Program-made: the position numbers and the translations under genes
Shown: one piece after another, positions 9,122-18,587 of the stretch
Position numbering within the stretch: position 1 is the first letter of the stretch
How the letters are laid out: every line of letters starts with the position of its first letter
Notes under the pieces: generated by a model
Seen by the model: the letters and a program-made list of their open reading frames with translations, nothing else
What the model was told of the DNA's origin: nothing
The model's database searches: none
Assembly: GCA_945787525.1 (NCBI GenBank)
Contig: CALZJC010000002.1
Coordinates: forward strand, 1-32,050
DNA: 32,050 nucleotides
Direction: 5' to 3'
From: Thermoanaerobaculia bacterium
GTDB taxonomy: Bacteria; Acidobacteriota; Thermoanaerobaculia; Multivoradales; JAHEKO01

Positions 9122-10933
9122 TCAGTACCGATCCAGATGGCCGCGCTCGGCGTCGCCCATCTCCACACCGCCCTCGGGGAAGTACTCTCTCCATCGCCGG
9201 TCCACCTTGCGGGCGACCTCCGGATCGCAGCACAGCTCATCGGGAAAGCCCGGCTTGAGGCGCGCATCGATGAGGATCGGCGGCCGGTAGGAGAGGTGGT
9301 TGCGCAGCGGCTCGCGACCCGCGGCGTGGATGTCCGCCGCCGGCTCGAAACGCGTGAACGTGGTCCACAGGAAGTTCATCGCCGAGGCGGCCGCGCGCCG
9401 GGGTTCGTCGGTCAGAACCACCAGCGGCCAGTCGGCGAAAGCGGCGTTGGCCGCCAGCCGGCTGGCGGCTTCGCGCTCGTCGGCGAGCCGGGGCCCGCCG
9501 ACCACGAGACATCCCGGGCAGAAGACCTCGACCTCGCTGACGCCGATCGGCAGCTCGGCCGAGAACTCCCGCGGCAGCTCCCGCACCGGATCGCCCAGCC
9601 CCAGCCAGACACCCTTCGAGCCCTCGTTGACCGCCGGCCCGGTGTAGTCGAGCGTGTCCATCGACAGGTTGGCGAAAACAAACAGATCGGTCTCGGGGCG
9701 GGTGCGCGCGAGCAGGTGGACCAGGGTGGCGCGGAAGTCCTTGAGATCCACCTCCCGATCGGTCACCAGGAGGAACTTGGTCAACGACAGCTGGCCCTCG
9801 CCGAGGATGCGAAAGGCGCTGACCATCGCCTCGCGCCGGTAGCGCTCGCGCACCACGGCCGCGGCCAGCGAGTGGTAGCCGGTCTCACCGTAGGACCAGA
9901 GATCCTTGACGCCGGGCATCACCAGCGGGAACAACGGCGCCAACAGCTCCTGCAGCAGATCGCCGATGAAAAAGTCCTCCTGCCGCGGCTTGCCGACCAC
10001 GGTGGCCGGGTAGATGGCGTCACGGCGGCGCGCCAGCCGCTGGACTTCGAAGACGGGGTAGTCGTGGGTCAGCGAGTAGTAACCGTAGTGGTCGCCGAAC
10101 GGACCCTCGGGCCGCCGCTCCCGGGGTGGGACGACGCCGCTCAGAGCGATCTCCGCCGTCGCCGGCACCGGATGCCCCCCCGGTCCCTCGACCACCGGCA
10201 GCCGGCCGCCGGCGATGAGCGAGGCCAGCATCAACTCGGGCAGATTCTCGGGCAGCGGCGCGATCGCCGAGAGGATCAGAGCCGGCGGTCCGCCCAGGAA
10301 GATCGTCGCCGGCAGCGGCTCGCCCCGCTCCTCCGCCACGCGGTAGTGGAAACCGCCGCCCTTGCCGATCTGCCAGTGCATGCCGGTGGTGCGCGGCCCG
10401 TGCACCTGCAGGCGGTAGAGACCCAGGTTGTGGCGACCGTCCTCCGGGTGCTGGGTGTAGGTCAGGCCGAGGGTCAGGAACGGGCCACCGTCCTCGGGCC
10501 AGGTTGTCAGAGCCGGCAGCCGGGTCAGGTCGACGTCGTCGCTCACCTGCTCGAGCACCGGCCCGCCGCGCTGGCGCCTGAGGCCCACCCGCAAAGCCTC
10601 CCAGGCCAGGTCGCGCGCCCCCCACAGCCGGCCGGGGGTCGGCGGCAGCAGCTCCTCGGCCAGCGCCGCCAGCCGCCGAATCAGCCGGAACGGCCGCTGG
10701 CCGAATGCCAGCTCGGCGCGCCGCGCGGTACCGAACAGATTGGTCACCGCCGGCAGCTCGGCGCCCCGGATCCGGTTGAAGAGCAGGGCCGGACCCCCGG
10801 CGGCGATCACCCGCCGGTGGATCTCGGCGGCCTCCTGGTCGGGGTCGACCTCGGCCTCGACCACCACCAGGTCGCCGTCGCGGCGCAGCTGTTCCAGAAA
10901 CGAGCGTAGATCGGCGAAAGTCTGGAGGCTCAT
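9122..10933 (-). CDS. UbiD family decarboxylase
   Basis: 603 aa; MSLQTFADLRSFLEQLRRDGDLVVVEAEVDPDQEAAEIHRRVIAAGGPALLFNRIRGAELPAVTNLFGTARR...; GPFGDHYGYYSLTHDYPVFEVQRLARRRDAIYPATVVGKPRQED typical of UbiD/menaquinone-type decarboxylases. Confidence 0.93.
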   Translation of the reverse strand: MSLQTFADLRSFLEQLRRDGDLVVVEAEVDPDQEAAEIHRRVIAAGGPALLFNRIRGAELPAVTNLFGTARRAELAFGQRPFRLIRRLAALAEELLPPTPGRLWGARDLAWEALRVGLRRQRGGPVLEQVSDDVDLTRLPALTTWPEDGGPFLTLGLTYTQHPEDGRHNLGLYRLQVHGPRTTGMHWQIGKGGGFHYRVAEERGEPLPATIFLGGPPALILSAIAPLPENLPELMLASLIAGGRLPVVEGPGGHPVPATAEIALSGVVPPRERRPEGPFGDHYGYYSLTHDYPVFEVQRLARRRDAIYPATVVGKPRQEDFFIGDLLQELLAPLFPLVMPGVKDLWSYGETGYHSLAAAVVRERYRREAMVSAFRILGEGQLSLTKFLLVTDREVDLKDFRATLVHLLARTRPETDLFVFANLSMDTLDYTGPAVNEGSKGVWLGLGDPVRELPREFSAELPIGVSEVEVFCPGCLVVGGPRLADEREAASRLAANAAFADWPLVVLTDEPRRAAASAMNFLWTTFTRFEPAADIHAAGREPLRNHLSYRPPILIDARLKPGFPDELCCDPEVARKVDRRWREYFPEGGVEMGDAERGHLDRY

Positions 10934-11044: not shown

Positions 11045-12112
11045 ATGAGCTACGACCTCTTCTCGAGCCCGGCCGCGCGAGAGCCGGGACCGGTGGCCCT
11101 GACAGAGGCCATCGCCGCGAAGGACCTCAACAACCTCTATCTGACCAGCTGCTATTTCGCCGACCCGGTGCGCTACGCCGCGTTCTGCTCGCTGTACGCG
11201 CTGATGCGCGTCATCGACGATCGAGTCGACGCGTTGCCACAGGATGCGACCGGCTTCGACCCCGCCGGCGAGCACGATGTGCTTCGCTTCTGGGAAGAGG
11301 CGCTGTTCGAGGCGGCCGACGGAGCGGCACCGCCGTCGGGGCTGGCTGAGCGCTGCCGCATGCCCGAGGCACGGCCGCTGGTAACCGAGGCGGCGCGGGC
11401 GATGCAGCGGTTTCCCTTCCCCCGGAAGCTGTGGCGGAACTTCTTCTCGGCGATGCACCGCGACATCGAGCAAGCTCGGTTCGAGACCTACCAGGAGTTC
11501 CTCGACTACACCGAAGGAGCCAGCGTCGCGCCGACCTCGATCTACCTATACCTCGTCGCCGCCGGCAACGAGTCCAGCACGGGCGCCTACGTCCTGCCGG
11601 ACGGCTTCGACCTCATTCACTGCGGCCGCCACCTGGGCGTCTTCTCCTATCTGGCGCACATCCTTCGGGATATGGCCCTCGACCTGGAGACCGGCGAGAA
11701 GGGCCTGCTCTATCTGGCGCGGGAGGACCTGAGCCGTTTTGGCCTCGACGAGGCGAGACTGCGTCAGGACCTCGAGAAGGGCAAGGCCCGGGAGTCGCTG
11801 CGAGAGCTGGCGGCCGAGCTGGCGCGGCGAGCCTACGAAGCCAGGGATCGCGGCGTCGCCGAACTCGAGCCCCTGCAGGGTCATCTGGAGCCGGACTGCG
11901 CCTTCATCCTGGAGGTCATCCTGGAGATCTACGGGCAGGCCCTCGCCAAGCTGGCCGCCGTCTCTTTCGACCCGATGACGGGCAAGCACCACCTGAGCCT
12001 CGAGGAGAAGTACGCGACCGTCAGCCGCGTCGCCCAACGCCTGGGATTCACGCCGCCGGCGGACGTTCTGTCCAGGCGGCCGATCGCCGCGGCCAGTCGC
12101 CCGCGGGCCTGA
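11045..12112 (+). CDS. Squalene/phytoene synthase family protein (trans-isoprenyl diphosphate synthase, head-to-head)
   Basis: First Asp motif YALMRVIDDRVDA; second HILRDMALDLETGEKGLLYLAREDL; overall squalene/phytoene synthase pattern. Confidence 0.85.
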   Translation: MSYDLFSSPAAREPGPVALTEAIAAKDLNNLYLTSCYFADPVRYAAFCSLYALMRVIDDRVDALPQDATGFDPAGEHDVLRFWEEALFEAADGAAPPSGLAERCRMPEARPLVTEAARAMQRFPFPRKLWRNFFSAMHRDIEQARFETYQEFLDYTEGASVAPTSIYLYLVAAGNESSTGAYVLPDGFDLIHCGRHLGVFSYLAHILRDMALDLETGEKGLLYLAREDLSRFGLDEARLRQDLEKGKARESLRELAAELARRAYEARDRGVAELEPLQGHLEPDCAFILEVILEIYGQALAKLAAVSFDPMTGKHHLSLEEKYATVSRVAQRLGFTPPADVLSRRPIAAASRPRA

Positions 12113-13316
12113 CGAAATCCCACAGAAAACCGGGCCGCAGGATCTCGGTCTTGGCGACCGCATGGCCCATCAGCCCCATGAAGCGGTCGGCCCATCGTCG
12201 GCTGGCGGCGGCCCTGGCGACGGCCAGGTCCACCAGACCCGGCCGGGCGTGGAAGCGCTGCAGCAGCCTGCCGAGACGGAACTCGGTCAGCATCCGGCGA
12301 CGCCACACCCGCTCGAAATCGCCCATCGGCCCGGCCGTGGAGAGATCGCCGGCCGCGATCGCCCGGTCCGCGAGAGCGGCGGCATCGACCCCGCTGCTCA
12401 TGGCGTTGTGGATGCCGTGGCCGGTGAACGGATCGACGAAGCCCGCAGCGTCGCCGACCAGCATCACGCCATCGGCGACAACGCGGCGGCCGTCGTGTCC
12501 GCCGGGCAGCAGCCAGCCCTCCACGTCCCGCACGCTGTCGAGGTCCACGTGCTGCCGCAACAAGCGCTCGAGCCGCCGGCGGAGCTTGACGCCGCGCGCT
12601 CGCCGATCGACTTCGACCATGCCCACACCGATGTTGGCGCGCCCATCGGGCTGCGGCACTATCCAGCAGCAACCAGGCATCAGCTCACGATCGGTGATCA
12701 CCGTGAGGTACCGGTCACCCTCCGGCCAGTCGGCGTAGGCCCGCATGCCGACGTAGAGGTCGTTGCCGCGACTGCCGCGGGCGGCCGGCGGTCGGATACC
12801 GCTCTCCCTCGCCACCCGGCTGGCCGCTCCGTCGGCACCGATGACGACACGCGCGTCGAGGGTCTCGATGCCCCGCGGAGTGTCGATCTGAAGCCGGCTG
12901 AAACGGCCCTCACCGTGCCGCCGGAGCCGCACCAGCCGATGCTCTTGCCGCAACTCGGCGCCGCAGCTCACGGCATGCGCCGCGAGCCGTGCGTCGAGCT
13001 TCTCACGAGGCAGGATTCGCCAGGGATGCACGGTGCCTCGCGCATCGCAAAACCCGCCCTGGATCCGCCGACCGCTCGCCGACACGTAGCGGCATCCGTC
13101 GAGCGACAGCGCATCGGGAGCGATGGCCTCCAGACTCGTGCCGACTCGCGACAGCGATCCGTCGACCTCTGGCAGCAGGACGTCGCCGCAGACCTTGTCA
13201 CGCGGGAAGCCGGCGGCGTCGAGAAGGACCACCGACCTGCCTCGGCGAGCGAGCAGCGAAGCGGCAAGGCTGCCCGCCGGGCCGGCCCCCACGACGACGA
13301 CTTCGGCAACGCTCAC
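12048..13316 (-). CDS. Geranylgeranyl reductase family FAD-dependent oxidoreductase
   Basis: GTG start at 13316: VSVAEVVVVGAGPAGSLAASLLARRGRSVVLLDAAGFPRDKVCGDVLLPE (FAD-binding GxGxxG plus DKxCG) and VMLVGDAAGFVDPFTGHGIHNAMSSG. Confidence 0.88.
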   Translation of the reverse strand: MSVAEVVVVGAGPAGSLAASLLARRGRSVVLLDAAGFPRDKVCGDVLLPEVDGSLSRVGTSLEAIAPDALSLDGCRYVSASGRRIQGGFCDARGTVHPWRILPREKLDARLAAHAVSCGAELRQEHRLVRLRRHGEGRFSRLQIDTPRGIETLDARVVIGADGAASRVARESGIRPPAARGSRGNDLYVGMRAYADWPEGDRYLTVITDRELMPGCCWIVPQPDGRANIGVGMVEVDRRARGVKLRRRLERLLRQHVDLDSVRDVEGWLLPGGHDGRRVVADGVMLVGDAAGFVDPFTGHGIHNAMSSGVDAAALADRAIAAGDLSTAGPMGDFERVWRRRMLTEFRLGRLLQRFHARPGLVDLAVARAAASRRWADRFMGLMGHAVAKTEILRPGFLWDFVRPAGDWPRRSAAWTERPPAA

Positions 13317-13347: not shown

Positions 13348-14187
13348 TCATCTCCGTGTCCCGGCGCCGTCGCCGCCGGTTTGGATCGCCGCCACATGGG
13401 TTCCCGGGACCGCTCTGCCAGCCAGCGCGCGCGCCAGCCTGCCGGGCTCCAGACCGTTGAGGATCCACGAGTCGACACCCAGTCGGGCGAGGGCGGCGGC
13501 GGTCTCCAGCCGGTGCCGCATGCCGCCGGTGACGTCGGTGCCGGCGGCCTCACCGGCCGACGCCAGGACGCGGCGCAGGTTGGCGCCCGTGACCGCCTCG
13601 ACCAGGCGCCCGTCGCGATCGTAGACACCCTCCGTCTCGCCCAGCCACAGCACGCGCGCCACCGGGCGACGGCGCCGTCGCAGGGCATTCACCAGGGCCC
13701 GGAAGACGCTCTCGGTCGAGCAGATGGCGGCGCCCTGGCGCCGATCCAGCACCACGTCGCCGTAGGTGACGGGCAGCAGGCGTCGATCGAGCGCGTGCAG
13801 GAGAGGCTCGAGCGCCAGGCCGACCGGCCGGCCGCCGCTGGCGCTCATGAAGCTCGACGGCGCCAGCGAGAACGGCGCCGCGCCCGCTGCGAGCCGGCCG
13901 TCGACGACCAGGCGATGCAGCGCCGCGGCGCGCGCCTGGGTCTCGGACACGCCGACCAGCTGGCTTCGACCGGCCACGCCCCGATGGACCCCATGCCGGG
14001 CCGCCGCGGGGTGGCCGAACGAGCCGCTGCCGTGGCCGACGATCAGCCGGCCGGCGCTCGCGTCCGACGCGCCTGCGATCTCGCCCGCCAACCGGGCGAT
14101 CACCCGGCCGCGCGATCGGCCGGGCCGGCGCTTGTCGGTGATCAGGCTGCCGCCCAGCTTGACCAGGGTCAGCGAAGCGCGCGTCAA
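13348..14187 (-). CDS. Isopentenyl phosphate kinase (IPK)
   Basis: Sense part of the longer ORF starts at TTG 14187: LTLVKLGGSLITDKRRPG...LIVGHGSGSFGHPAA (catalytic-His HGxGSFGH signature)...PVTYGDVVLDRRQGAAICSTE...VLWLGETEGVYDRDG...AGTDVTGGMRHRLE...SWILNG. Close to archaeal IPK organisation. Confidence 0.9.
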   Translation of the reverse strand: MTRASLTLVKLGGSLITDKRRPGRSRGRVIARLAGEIAGASDASAGRLIVGHGSGSFGHPAAARHGVHRGVAGRSQLVGVSETQARAAALHRLVVDGRLAAGAAPFSLAPSSFMSASGGRPVGLALEPLLHALDRRLLPVTYGDVVLDRRQGAAICSTESVFRALVNALRRRRRPVARVLWLGETEGVYDRDGRLVEAVTGANLRRVLASAGEAAGTDVTGGMRHRLETAAALARLGVDSWILNGLEPGRLARALAGRAVPGTHVAAIQTGGDGAGTRR

Positions 14188-15182
14188 AACAGGTGCTCCT
14201 CGATCGACCGCGGCCCGGTGCCCACCCGGTCCCGTAGCAGCGAGATCACTCGCGGCAGCCCGGCGAGCGCCGCCGCCACCGCCTCCTCGTCTCCAGGCCC
14301 ACAGATGACGTGCACGTTGGGCCCCGCGTCCATGGTGAACCAGGCGCCGACACCGCGCGCTCGCAGCTGGCGCACCGCCTCCAGGACCTCGAGCGTGCCC
14401 GGGCGCCAGTAGAAGATGGGCGGCCGGGACGACATGGCGATCAGGTGCAGATCGATCGCCTCCTGCTCGACGATCGGGCCGAGCCGTTCCAGATCCCGGT
14501 CCCGGATCGCCTGTCCCACCGCCGCCAGACGCTCGCCGAGCCGTTCCTGGCGCAGGGCGAACTGCGGGCTGGTCGAGGCACGGCGGTGGCCCTCGCGGGA
14601 GGAGACCGACTTGAAAGCTGTGTCGACCACGGCGACCAGATCGCACAACGGCCAGTGATCGGCTGGAGCCAGCGAGACGGCCGGGCTCGCGGGGTCGGCA
14701 TCGTCGGCCGGCCAGCGCACGTAGCCGCCCATCACCGAGCGCGCCGCCGAGCCCGAGCCGCTCAGCCGCGCCAGCAACGACAGCTCGGCCGCATCCGGGT
14801 CGCGCTCGAGGCTCGCCGCTACCGCTATGGCGAGCGCCGCAAAGCCGGCGGCCGAGGAGGCGATGCCCGCGCCGGTGGGAAAGTTGTTGCGCGTGGCGAC
14901 CCGGAACGGGACCTCGACGGCGGCCCACCGCCGCAGCTGATCGAGATGACGGCGCACGCCCGCGACGAACGCCACCGGTGCCTCTTCCAGTACGCCGCCG
15001 GCCGTCGCCAGCAGGACCTCGTCTCGGCCGGCTGCCGGTAAGCGCTCCACCGTGGTCCGCGCGCGGCAGTGATCGAGCGTCATGGACACCGAGGCGTTCT
15101 CCGGCAGCGCCGACTCCAGATCCCGCGCCCCCCAGTACTTGATGAAGGCGATGTTGGCCGGGGCTTCGACCGTTACCTTCAA
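14184..15182 (-). CDS. Mevalonate (di)phosphate decarboxylase family GHMP enzyme; candidate phosphomevalonate decarboxylase
   Basis: TTG start 15182: LKVTVEAPANIAFIKYWGARDLESALPENASVSMTLD...NNFPTGAGIASSAAGFAALA...LSGSGSAARSVMGGYVRWP...GAWFTMDAGPNVHVICG. MDD-family motifs with conserved Asp (MDAGPN) and Ser/Arg (GSGSAAR). Confidence 0.92.
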   Translation of the reverse strand: MKVTVEAPANIAFIKYWGARDLESALPENASVSMTLDHCRARTTVERLPAAGRDEVLLATAGGVLEEAPVAFVAGVRRHLDQLRRWAAVEVPFRVATRNNFPTGAGIASSAAGFAALAIAVAASLERDPDAAELSLLARLSGSGSAARSVMGGYVRWPADDADPASPAVSLAPADHWPLCDLVAVVDTAFKSVSSREGHRRASTSPQFALRQERLGERLAAVGQAIRDRDLERLGPIVEQEAIDLHLIAMSSRPPIFYWRPGTLEVLEAVRQLRARGVGAWFTMDAGPNVHVICGPGDEEAVAAALAGLPRVISLLRDRVGTGPRSIEEHLF

Positions 15183-16264
15183 GCTGCCCCCACCCGCAGC
15201 CCCGGAGCGCCCATGGCGCACTCGATACGACGCCAACCGGCGGGCGCGGGCGGCGCCCGTCGCGCTGACAGAGAGTAGACCAGCAGACAGCCGGCGGCAG
15301 CGCCGCTCAGCGCTCCGGCACCCGAGATCTTCGCCGCACCACCGGCCCGTTCCAGCCGCCGCACCATCCGGCGAACCGGCTCCGGCACGACGCCCACCTC
15401 TTCCAGGCAGCGCTCGAAGTCGCGCACCGGCGCCGCCACGGCGGCGCGGTCACCGCTCTCGAGCGCCGCGCGAAAGCTCATCGCTGCGGTGCGCATCCTG
15501 GCCAAGACGGTATCGAAGCCGGCCGGATCGTCCCGTCGGCGATCGGCGACCGCCGCCACGACGGCGCCGGTGCTCTCGGCCGGCGGCCCGCTGTCGTAGA
15601 TGCGGAAGGCTTGCAGCAGCTCGGGCCGGGCCGCCACCGGCCGCAGCCGCAGTTCGCCAGCGGCATCGCGATCGGCCCACTGGAGGCCGCCGCGCAGGAC
15701 GGTGCCGTGATCGACCCCCGAAGGGCGGCCGTGCTGACGCCGCTCCACCTCCAGCGCCAACCGCCCCACCCGTTCCGGATCCGCCTCGCCACCGCGCCAG
15801 GCGAGAAAACCGGCGATCACCGACACGGCCACCGCCGCCGAAGAGCCAAACCCGGCGCCCACCGGAAGCTCGGAGCGGACCCGCAGACGAAGCGGCGGCA
15901 GAGCCTCGGGAGCCCGCTCAACCGCGGCCTCGCCCAGCGCCACCCGGACCAGGGCCGCCGGGTCGTCGTCGCGCTCGAAAAGGGCGCCCTCGCGATATGC
16001 CAGCCAGCGCGCCCGGGCTCGAGCGGTGTGCTCGGCGATCTCCCGCCAGCTGCCGTGAGTGTGTATCCCGAGGTCCGGCAGATCCAGCTCGACACCCTGG
16101 CCGACGCCGTCGCCGAGCTCGGCTCGCACCCTGAGCCCGAGGGCCGCGGTCAGGGCCGGCTGACCATAGACCGCGCCGTGCTCGCCCATCAGGATCAGCT
16201 TGCCGGGTGCGGAGACAGCGACCACGGTACGCCGAGCCCGGGAGCTAGGATGAGCCGTTGCCAC
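15179..16264 (-). CDS. Mevalonate kinase (GHMP kinase)
   Basis: VVAVSAPGKLILMGEHGAVYGQPALTAAL; LPVGAGFGSSAAVAVSVIAGFL; RRQHGRPSGVDHGTVLRGG; AAKISGAGALSGAAAGCLLVY. Confidence 0.9.
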   Translation of the reverse strand: MATAHPSSRARRTVVAVSAPGKLILMGEHGAVYGQPALTAALGLRVRAELGDGVGQGVELDLPDLGIHTHGSWREIAEHTARARARWLAYREGALFERDDDPAALVRVALGEAAVERAPEALPPLRLRVRSELPVGAGFGSSAAVAVSVIAGFLAWRGGEADPERVGRLALEVERRQHGRPSGVDHGTVLRGGLQWADRDAAGELRLRPVAARPELLQAFRIYDSGPPAESTGAVVAAVADRRRDDPAGFDTVLARMRTAAMSFRAALESGDRAAVAAPVRDFERCLEEVGVVPEPVRRMVRRLERAGGAAKISGAGALSGAAAGCLLVYSLSARRAPPAPAGWRRIECAMGAPGLRVGAA

Positions 16265-17507
16265 GGCCCAGCCGTTCGTGGGCTCCGGCCAGGTCGCCCG
16301 AGGTGAACGCCGCCATCAGCGAGATCTCGCCCGCCAGCACCGTGGCGCCGAGGATCTCGGCCAACCGCAACGAGCCGGCCCCCGGCTTGCCCGCTTCGGC
16401 TGCGGCGCCCAGCAGGGCCAGCGCCTCGCGCTGGGTGCTCAGCGCGGTGCCGCCGCCCACCACGCCGAGCGGCACGTCGGGCATGAAGATCGACGCCAGC
16501 ACACCGCCCTCGCCCGACGGCTCGACCGTGGTCATGCCCATCGAGCCCTCCACCACCTGCGCCACGTCCTGGCCGGTGGCGATGAAGAACGCCGCCAGCA
16601 CGTTGGCAAAGTGGGCGTTCGATCCCATCGCTCCGGCGGCGATCGAGCCGATCAGGTTCTTGCGGTACTGGACCTCGATCATCGCCTCGGCGCGGGTCTT
16701 GAGACAGCCCTCGAGGATCTCCGGCCCGAGCTGGACCTCGGCGTGGATCCGCTTGCCGCGGCCCTCGAGAAAGTTGATCGCCGACGGCTTCTTGTCGACG
16801 CAGTAGTTGCCCGACAGGGCGACGCAGCGAACGCCGGTCTCCGGCTCGATCAGCTGCTGCACGACCCGATCGCAGGCGATGGTTGCCATGTTCATGCCCA
16901 TGGCGTCGCCCGAGTGGAAACGGAATCGCACGAAGATCGAGGTTCCGATCGCCTGGGTCTTGATGTCGGCCAGACGCAGGAAACGGCTGGTGCCTTCGGC
17001 GACCTCCCGGATCCGTTGCTCGTTGTCGCTCAGCCAGGCGAGGAAGCGCTCGCTCTGCTCGAGGCCGCTGGCGCGAAACACCGGCGCGCGCGTCATGCCG
17101 ACGTCCTCCACCCGCACCAACGCGCCCCCGGCCTCGACGATCGCGCGGCAGCCCCGGTTGACGCTGGCGATGAGCGCGCCTTCGGTGGTGGCCAGCGGCA
17201 CGTAGAGAGTCTCTTCCGGCCCGACCATCCGGCCACGCACACTCAGCGGCCCGGCGACCCCGAGCGGCACCTGGCTGATGCCGATGAAGTTCTCGCAGTG
17301 GCGGCTCGCGGCGCGCTCGGCGTCCAGAGAGTAGCGCCCCGAGTGCTCCAAGCCGCTGGAGCGCAGCGCCTCGATGGCGCGCCGCCGCACGCCGGCCGCC
17401 TGTTCGGCAGTCAGCTCCGCGGGAAGATCGTGCAGACGCCGCTCGCCGGCAACGATCGACCGCACCAGCTGCGCCAGCTCGTCCGTCTGTATCTTGGCTG
17501 GATCCAC
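16245..17507 (-). CDS. hmgA: Hydroxymethylglutaryl-CoA reductase, class I-like
   Basis: ENFIGISQVPLGVAGPL; TTEGALIASVNRGCRAI; FHSGDAMGMNMATIA; GNYCVDKKPSAINFLEGRGK; GMTTVEPSGEGGVLASIFMPDVPLGVVGGGT. Confidence 0.96.
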   Translation of the reverse strand: MDPAKIQTDELAQLVRSIVAGERRLHDLPAELTAEQAAGVRRRAIEALRSSGLEHSGRYSLDAERAASRHCENFIGISQVPLGVAGPLSVRGRMVGPEETLYVPLATTEGALIASVNRGCRAIVEAGGALVRVEDVGMTRAPVFRASGLEQSERFLAWLSDNEQRIREVAEGTSRFLRLADIKTQAIGTSIFVRFRFHSGDAMGMNMATIACDRVVQQLIEPETGVRCVALSGNYCVDKKPSAINFLEGRGKRIHAEVQLGPEILEGCLKTRAEAMIEVQYRKNLIGSIAAGAMGSNAHFANVLAAFFIATGQDVAQVVEGSMGMTTVEPSGEGGVLASIFMPDVPLGVVGGGTALSTQREALALLGAAAEAGKPGAGSLRLAEILGATVLAGEISLMAAFTSGDLAGAHERLGRGNGSS

Positions 17508-17510
17508 AGC

Positions 17511-18587
17511 TCAGATCCTCTCGCTGCGCCGTCGCAGGGGGGCGCGTCGAAGCGCCGTCAGATCGGCGGCACCGGCGCAGAACATGGCGATCTCGAGCTC
17601 ACGCACCACGCGCGCGGCGCGAGCCACCACCGCTTCGGCGGACTCGTTGGCGGCCTCCAGGAAACGCTGCGCCAAACCCACCAGGTCGGCGCCAAAGGCG
17701 ATCGCCTTGGCTGCATCGAGCCCGTTGCGCACGCCACCGCTGCCGATGACGGTGGCGCCGGGGATCGCCGACAGCTGGCGGATCGACAGCGGTGTCGGCT
17801 CGCCCCAGTCGGCAAACAGCTCACCGATATCCGCCTCGCCCGACCGTGCAGCCTCGATCCGGGCCCAGCTCGTGCCGCCGACCCCAGCGGTGTCGAAGAT
17901 CTCGACGCCCACCTCGAGCAGCCGGCGCGCCGTCGCCGCCGACAAGCCGCAACCGATCTCCTTGACGATGACCGGCACATCGAGCCGGCTCACCACGTGG
18001 CCGATCTTGGCCGCCAGCCCCGAAAAGTCGCACTGCCCCTCGGGCTGAATGGCCTCCTGCAGCGGGTTGAGGTGAAAGACCAGCGCGTCGGCGTCGATCA
18101 TCTCCACCGCCGCCCGGCACTGGTCGAGGCCAAAGCCGTAGTTGAGCTGCACCGCCCCCAGGTTGGCCAGAATCGGCACCGAAGGGGCTTCGGCTCGCAC
18201 GCGGAAGCTGTCCGCCAGCGACGGGTCCTCGATCGCGTTGCGTTGCGACCCGACGCCGAGGGCGATGCCGGCCTCTTCCGCCGCCCGCGCCAGATTGCGG
18301 TTGATCCGCATCGCCTCGTCGGTGCCGCCGGTCATACAGGAGATCAGCAGCGGCGCTCGCAGCGCGCGTCCCAGGAAGCTCGTCGAGATGTCGATGTCGG
18401 CGTAGTCGATCTCCGGCAGGGCCGCGTGCTCCAGCTCCCAGGCGTCGAAGTAGCTGCCAGCCACCTGCATTCGCCGGTCGAGCGCCAGCGCGATGTGCTC
18501 CGCCTTGCGATCGCGCTCCTCGGGCTCGCCGGAGGCGGTTGGCGGGTCAGGCGGCGCCACTGGAGACTGCGGCTTCATCGTTGGCAT
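17511..18587 (-). CDS. fni: Isopentenyl-diphosphate delta-isomerase type 2
   Basis: RKAEHIALALDRRMQ; LLISCMTGGTDEAMRINRNLARAAEEAGIALGVGSQRNAIED; GVEIFDTAGVGGTSWARIE; ATVIGSGGVRNGLDAAKAIAFGADLVGLA. Confidence 0.95.
   Translation of the reverse strand: MPTMKPQSPVAPPDPPTASGEPEERDRKAEHIALALDRRMQVAGSYFDAWELEHAALPEIDYADIDISTSFLGRALRAPLLISCMTGGTDEAMRINRNLARAAEEAGIALGVGSQRNAIEDPSLADSFRVRAEAPSVPILANLGAVQLNYGFGLDQCRAAVEMIDADALVFHLNPLQEAIQPEGQCDFSGLAAKIGHVVSRLDVPVIVKEIGCGLSAATARRLLEVGVEIFDTAGVGGTSWARIEAARSGEADIGELFADWGEPTPLSIRQLSAIPGATVIGSGGVRNGLDAAKAIAFGADLVGLAQRFLEAANESAEAVVARAARVVRELEIAMFCAGAADLTALRRAPLRRRSERI

Follow-up and report, generated by a model that had tools for sequence, protein, structure and literature searches.

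A predicted mevalonate-5-phosphate decarboxylase in an isoprenoid operon of Thermoanaerobaculia (Acidobacteriota)

Introduction

Which phosphorylated form of mevalonate does a decarboxylase use when automated models call it a diphosphomevalonate decarboxylase (MDD) and the gene beside it encodes an isopentenyl phosphate kinase (IPK)? The question is raised by a locus of an uncultured Thermoanaerobaculia bacterium (Acidobacteriota), located in a stretch of 32,050 nucleotides (contig CALZJC010000002.1, assembly GCA_945787525.1) which is called the window here. In the alternative mevalonate pathway, a rarer version of the mevalonate route, the last two steps to the isoprenoid building block are swapped. 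An initial annotation of the gene had proposed a mevalonate-5-phosphate decarboxylase (MPD) rather than an MDD, based on the loss of the usual MDD Lys and on the neighboring IPK, which would be needless if isopentenyl diphosphate (IPP) had already been made. Here we compare the pocket residues, the fold, the tree position and the gene content of related genomes.

Results

The decarboxylase gene and its operon

The coordinates given by the initial annotation were correct; the strand, which it had left unsaid, is minus. The TTG start at 15182 overlaps by a few bases with the stop of the mevalonate kinase (MVK) gene, and a TGA ends the reading frame at 14184. The motifs named before, NNFPTGAGIASSAAGFAALA, GSGSAAR, FTMDAGPN and FIKYWGARD, were all found in the ORF. 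On the minus strand the genes follow each other in the order type 2 IPP isomerase (IDI-2), HMG-CoA reductase (HMGR), MVK, decarboxylase, IPK and a geranylgeranyl-reductase-family protein, a probable isoprenoid user (Table 1). The IPK is indeed the direct neighbor of the decarboxylase, and its best PDB matches are solved IPKs. The MVK homologue is far from the models for phosphomevalonate kinase (PMK; 31.6 bits).

Table 1. Genes and motifs of the operon region, with positions in the window.
Feature	Position	Strand	Remarks
UbiD-family decarboxylase, menaquinone type	9122-10933	-	slightly below cut-off; flank of the operon
Squalene/phytoene-synthase-family gene	11045-12112	+	flank of the operon
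Geranylgeranyl/menaquinone reductase-family FAD protein	12048-13316	-	TIGR02032 above cut-off; same gene run, downstream
Isopentenyl phosphate kinase (IPK)	13348-14187	-	TTG start overlaps MPD stop; NF040647 145.8 bits, cut-off 120
ATP-dependent mevalonate-5-phosphate decarboxylase (MPD/PMD), predicted	14184-15182	-	332 aa, TTG start; automated models annotate MDD
FTMDAGPN	14316-14339	-	catalytic Asp285 kept (MDD Asp282/283)
KSVSSREGHRRA loop	14577-14612	-	catalytic Lys191, Ser194/Ser195, Arg196, His199
KYWGARD motif	15120-15140	-	Ala19 at MDD Lys21 (S. epidermidis numbering) / AthMPD Asn20
Mevalonate kinase (MVK) homologue	15179-16264	-	TIGR00549 135.7 bits, below curated cut-off 163
HMG-CoA reductase (NADPH type)	16245-17507	-	432.7 bits, slightly below curated cut-off 441.8
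Type 2 isopentenyl-diphosphate isomerase (IDI-2)	17511-18587	-	TIGR02151 above cut-off

A UbiD gene after IPK, comparable to the one in the flank of the operon, is also present in L008, L017 and L025, which suggests a link with quinone or other isoprenoid products.

The MDD equivalog model TIGR01240 matched the decarboxylase with 225.8 bits, above its cut-off, and PF22700 matched with 148.6 bits. Judged from these sequence scores and from the best PDB match (6.8e-72), membership in the family is not due to chance. Family models were rejected as arbiter of the substrate, as the MDD model is above its cut-off and the haloarchaeal MPD model NF040704 is below (139 bits compared to a cut-off of 475). 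The match to the Haloferax-type phosphomevalonate decarboxylases behind NF040704 is significant and we infer the same reaction, but the score far below the cut-off points to a separate subfamily. The catalytic Asp285 and the ATP-site Lys191 are invariant across an alignment of 60 rows. As Asp285 is retained in FTMDAGPN, decarboxylation would be expected and not 3-phosphorylation alone.

The nearest characterized relative

The best PDB chains by sequence were 6n0x, which gave the E-value above, and 6n0z (1e-70). Both represent the MPD from Anaerolinea thermophila (AthMPD; Thomas et al. 2019, as cited in PMC9254496 and PMC11052028), and the best MDD followed behind with 5.8e-51. A fold search using an AlphaFold2 model of the window protein (pLDDT 96, pTM 0.93) revealed 6n0x, 6n0y and 6n0z on top, with TM scores of 0.90-0.92 and a full-length identity of about 41%. 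AthMPD is thus closest by sequence and by fold, and an MPD as nearest solved relative argues for the proposed assignment. Bacterial MDDs also superpose well on the model (TM 0.86-0.91), so that the model alone cannot separate the substrates.

Both AthMPD and the window protein contain the catalytic Lys and Asp and a His at the MDD Met site, and both lack the Lys at the MDD Lys21 site. They differ in Asn20 of AthMPD, which is Ala19 in the window, in an Arg at the position of Ala25 and in the loop, which reads GSTQ in AthMPD and SSRE, including Arg196, in the window. In addition, the window gene adjoins IPK in a full mevalonate operon, and the phylum is a different one.

Residues of the phosphate pocket

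Phosphate-binding residues were listed by Dellas et al. (PMC3857490) for the MDD from S. epidermidis (Tyr18, Lys21, Ile27, Ser139, Ser141 and Ser192) and for the MPD from Roseiflexus castenholzii (Tyr74, Leu77, Arg83, Ala201, Ser203 and Thr255). The alignment identified Tyr16, Ala19, Ala25, Ser143, Ser145 and Ser195 as the equivalents in the window protein. Ala19 is located at Lys21 of the S. epidermidis enzyme, in line with the exchange of the usual MDD Lys for Ala recognized earlier. The Arg83 of the Roseiflexus enzyme is missing as well (Ala25), and the serines stay.

In the AthMPD mutant N20K H194M exactly two sites were changed towards the MDD type, as seen from the PDB title and the sequence difference. 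At these sites the window protein has Ala19 in place of Lys and His199, the counterpart of AthMPD His194, in place of Met; both MDD residues, Lys21 and Met196, are therefore absent. This combination at the two specificity-switch sites also favors MPD over MDD. The MDD pocket residues Ser139, Ser141, Ser192 and Arg193 are present as Ser143, Ser145, Ser195 and Arg196. These serines are common to most A. thermophila-type MPDs. Arg196 matches the MDDs from S. epidermidis and E. faecalis, and Thr is found at this position in both the Cryptococcus MDD and AthMPD, so that Arg193 is no discriminator. According to the alignment, the pocket is a mosaic of MDD-like and MPD-like residues.

The system from R. 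castenholzii resembles the window in the presence of MVK, MPD and IPK without PMK (Dellas et al. 2013, PMC3857490). Its MPD was grouped with haloarchaeal proteins (PMC3857490) and, according to the published residue table, differs from the window protein in Leu77, Arg83, Ala201 and Thr255 (Ala19, Ala25, Ser143 and Ser195 in the window). The window protein shows neither of the marks of the haloarchaeal/Roseiflexus-type MPDs, an NF040704 score above the cut-off and the Arg83.

Gene content within Thermoanaerobaculia

Named relatives place the group in Acidobacteriota, for the most part in Thermoanaerobaculia. For a comparison within the class we used 101 genomes of Thermoanaerobaculia, the window's own included. 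A decarboxylase homologue is present in 35 of these genomes. In 26 of the 101 it is of the window type, with an identity of 52-60% to the window protein, the query itself aside, and exactly the same 26 genomes contain IPK. The IPK gene lies beside the decarboxylase gene in 23 of them and on a separate contig in G029, G077 and G088. PMK was found in none of the 26, which are nearly all at least 93% complete (the window's own genome 89%). The other nine genomes encode a decarboxylase with about 40% identity to the window protein, and in all nine the gene adjoins PMK and IPK is missing. The two groups largely track taxonomy, so that these counts do not represent independent events.

The PMK model TIGR01220 falls below its cut-off even for true PMKs of the class, and the test was therefore repeated with a PMK from the class as query. 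This query yielded 153-745 bits in the nine genomes with PMK and MDD and at most 59 bits in the IPK genomes, where the matches examined fell on the MVK of the operon. The search with the human-type PMK family PF04275 matched no positive control and was given no weight.

The residues follow the same division. The two specificity sites are occupied by Lys and Met in all nine PMK-linked decarboxylases, and the pair occurs in none of the 26 window-type proteins where the sites are readable. Classical bacterial MDDs (S. epidermidis 3qt5, E. faecalis 5v2l and L099-L107 of the class) share the fold, the GHMP motifs and the catalytic Asp with the window protein; they differ in having Lys21 and Met196, and L099-L107 show linkage to PMK instead of IPK. 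The earlier argument that IPK is needless for a cell which already makes IPP is upheld by the strict separation (26/26 IPK without PMK, 9/9 the reverse), and the same split speaks for an MPD.

Phylogeny and wider distribution

For the tree, both specificity columns were left out of the alignment. The window protein belongs to a clade of 36 rows (support 100/99) and is placed together with the A. thermophila enzyme and apart from the tested MDDs. The MPD-side rows are separated from the MDDs (70/12) with moderate support of 67/91; the MDD side consists of the nine PMK-linked decarboxylases from the class together with the Enterococcus, Staphylococcus and Cryptococcus enzymes. Clustering inside the validated MDDs, combined with a complete diphosphate pocket, had been named as an outcome that would speak against an MPD. 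Instead, the protein is positioned outside (67/91), and Lys21 and Met196 are replaced.

Among the genomes of 28 named relatives, 18 contain IPK above the cut-off, among them nearly all Chloroflexota tested and the MAGs labelled Gemmatimonadota and Rhodothermota. In one Chloroflexaceae MAG, IPK is present only as two fragments. The Microgenomates rows with an adjoining PMK branch among the MPD-side rows, and at site 21 most of them carry Lys or Arg, a pattern suggesting that this residue changed a second time along with gene content. Linkage to IPK or PMK changed only about two times on the tree; the correlation between residue and linkage is therefore strong in rows and rests on few independent events. 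An independent-pairs test of residue against linkage contained 1-2 pairs only, too few for significance.

The protein L067 has Lys at site 21, His at site 196 and an adjoining IPK, with no clear PMK. The Lys loss on which the initial annotation relied is real, but site 21 alone is thus not decisive. L067 is possibly an intermediate, useful for separating the two sites. In the actinomycete Phytomonospora endophytica (L026, 6001-7011; genome of 8.3 Mb) we observed an MPD-like decarboxylase with 53% identity, Leu at site 21 and His at site 196; HMGR and MVK are present there, with no IPK above the cut-off and no PMK match. Another clade (L054, L057, L062, L063, L076, L077, L078 and L081, also L049) shows the motif FT(V/L/I/M)NTGQ, in which Asn replaces the catalytic Asp and Gln stands where FTMDAGPN has its Pro. 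It comprises mostly Microgenomates and one archaeon-labelled MAG; most of the genes belong to runs of HMGR, MVK and PMK, and no genome has more than this one decarboxylase homologue. In the Sulfolobus DMD, replacement of the Asp yielded a 3-kinase.

The pathway in the window's own genome

Searches of the window's own genome, which is 89% complete, gave no match to PMK of the Gram-positive type and none to DXR of the MEP pathway. AcnX, the phosphomevalonate dehydratase of the archaea-type route, had no match there either, and the controls matched. As neither PMK nor AcnX was found in this genome, the classical and the archaea-type routes were not found there. The UbiD-family gene of the flank was considered as trans-anhydromevalonate-phosphate decarboxylase of the archaea-type route and ruled out, because AcnX is missing from the genome and the best score was obtained with the menaquinone UbiD model, slightly below the cut-off. 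An archaeal-type HMG-CoA synthase above the cut-off is encoded elsewhere in the genome, beside an archaeal-style thiolase (G000:C114, L135, 257-2451).

DXR is present in 17 of the 26 window-type genomes and had no match in 9, so that the mevalonate route seems to replace the MEP pathway in some lineages and to coexist with it in others. The genome G098, which belongs to the window's family, contains DXR and neither MPD nor IPK; the window genome (G000) contains MPD and IPK with no DXR match. Within the limits of 89-93% completeness, this pair hints that one pathway has taken the place of the other.

Discussion

We conclude, with a probability of about 0.92, that the window gene encodes an ATP-dependent mevalonate-5-phosphate decarboxylase and that IPK would then make IPP, which would complete the alternative pathway. 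The tree, at its moderate support, and the lack of a PMK match in the own genome point in the same direction. The enzyme would phosphorylate the 3-hydroxyl of mevalonate 5-phosphate (MVAP) with ATP and then eliminate phosphate and CO2, resulting in isopentenyl phosphate; this would be converted to IPP by IPK, and IDI-2 would isomerize the IPP. With HMGR and MVK in the operon and HMG-CoA synthase and thiolase elsewhere, the cell probably has a complete alternative mevalonate pathway of the haloarchaea type as its sole source of isoprenoids.

A sub-case of this reading is a decarboxylase with dual specificity, which would turn over MVAP and the diphosphate MVAPP at similar rates and act as MPD in vivo since PMK is missing. 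We regard this as quite possible, at slightly less than even odds. The Chloroflexota enzyme of the A. thermophila type was reported to be active on both substrates (PMC11052028) and AthMPD was also crystallized with the diphosphate (6n0y), so that activity on MVAPP may remain in the window enzyme, whose mosaic pocket keeps Arg196. In some Asgard proteins, loss of the Lys with the His kept was read as likely dual specificity (PMC11052028). Against similar rates stand the lost Lys and the His at the two sites altered in the AthMPD mutant, and a cell without PMK would presumably be under no pressure to retain the use of MVAPP. In such a cell, exclusivity for one of the two substrates matters only in vitro.

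It is highly unlikely that the protein is a classical MDD which makes IPP from MVAPP supplied by an unrecognized kinase, with IPK salvaging isopentenyl phosphate. The TIGR01240 score and the retention of Arg196 and of the two GSGS serines fit such an enzyme, and a PMK could be missed in a genome of 89% completeness; but PMK is lacking in all 26 genomes with the enzyme, nearly all of them at least 93% complete, and adjoins the gene in all nine classical relatives of the class, Lys21 and Met196 are replaced and the nearest solved structure is an MPD. A mevalonate 3-kinase or 3,5-bisphosphate decarboxylase of a Thermoplasma-type pathway, which belongs to the same superfamily and could be read from a weak NF040847 match (29.4 bits, cut-off 560), can practically be dismissed in view of the retained Asp285 and Lys191, the adjoining MVK homologue and the lack of a close sequence match to Thermoplasma enzymes.

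The literature assigns the MPD/IPK route to Chloroflexota and, among archaea, to the haloarchaea and some others, and we found no report of it in Acidobacteriota in the searchable literature, which leaves most subscription papers out of reach. Both the kind of enzyme and the pathway are already known, and the novelty lies in the phylum and in the exact pocket; the protein is best seen as a new branch, in bacteria, within a known type of enzyme. A more far-reaching proposal, which we consider rather doubtful, is that a whole order of Acidobacteriota carries the full MPD/IPK operon, which in some lineages apparently substitutes for the MEP pathway, and that a pocket with Ala19, Ala25 and the MDD-like Arg196 selects the monophosphate as a third solution of specificity. 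If true, this pocket would differ from those of Anaerolinea (Asn20 and Arg) and Roseiflexus (Leu/Arg).

The automated name MDD would lead to the prediction of an incorrect intermediate and of an absent PMK throughout a whole order. How MDD and MPD were converted into each other is debated in accounts of the evolution of the mevalonate pathway (PMC9254496, PMC11052028), and a single class that has both forms of the pathway with different pocket residues would provide a natural comparison for this interconversion.
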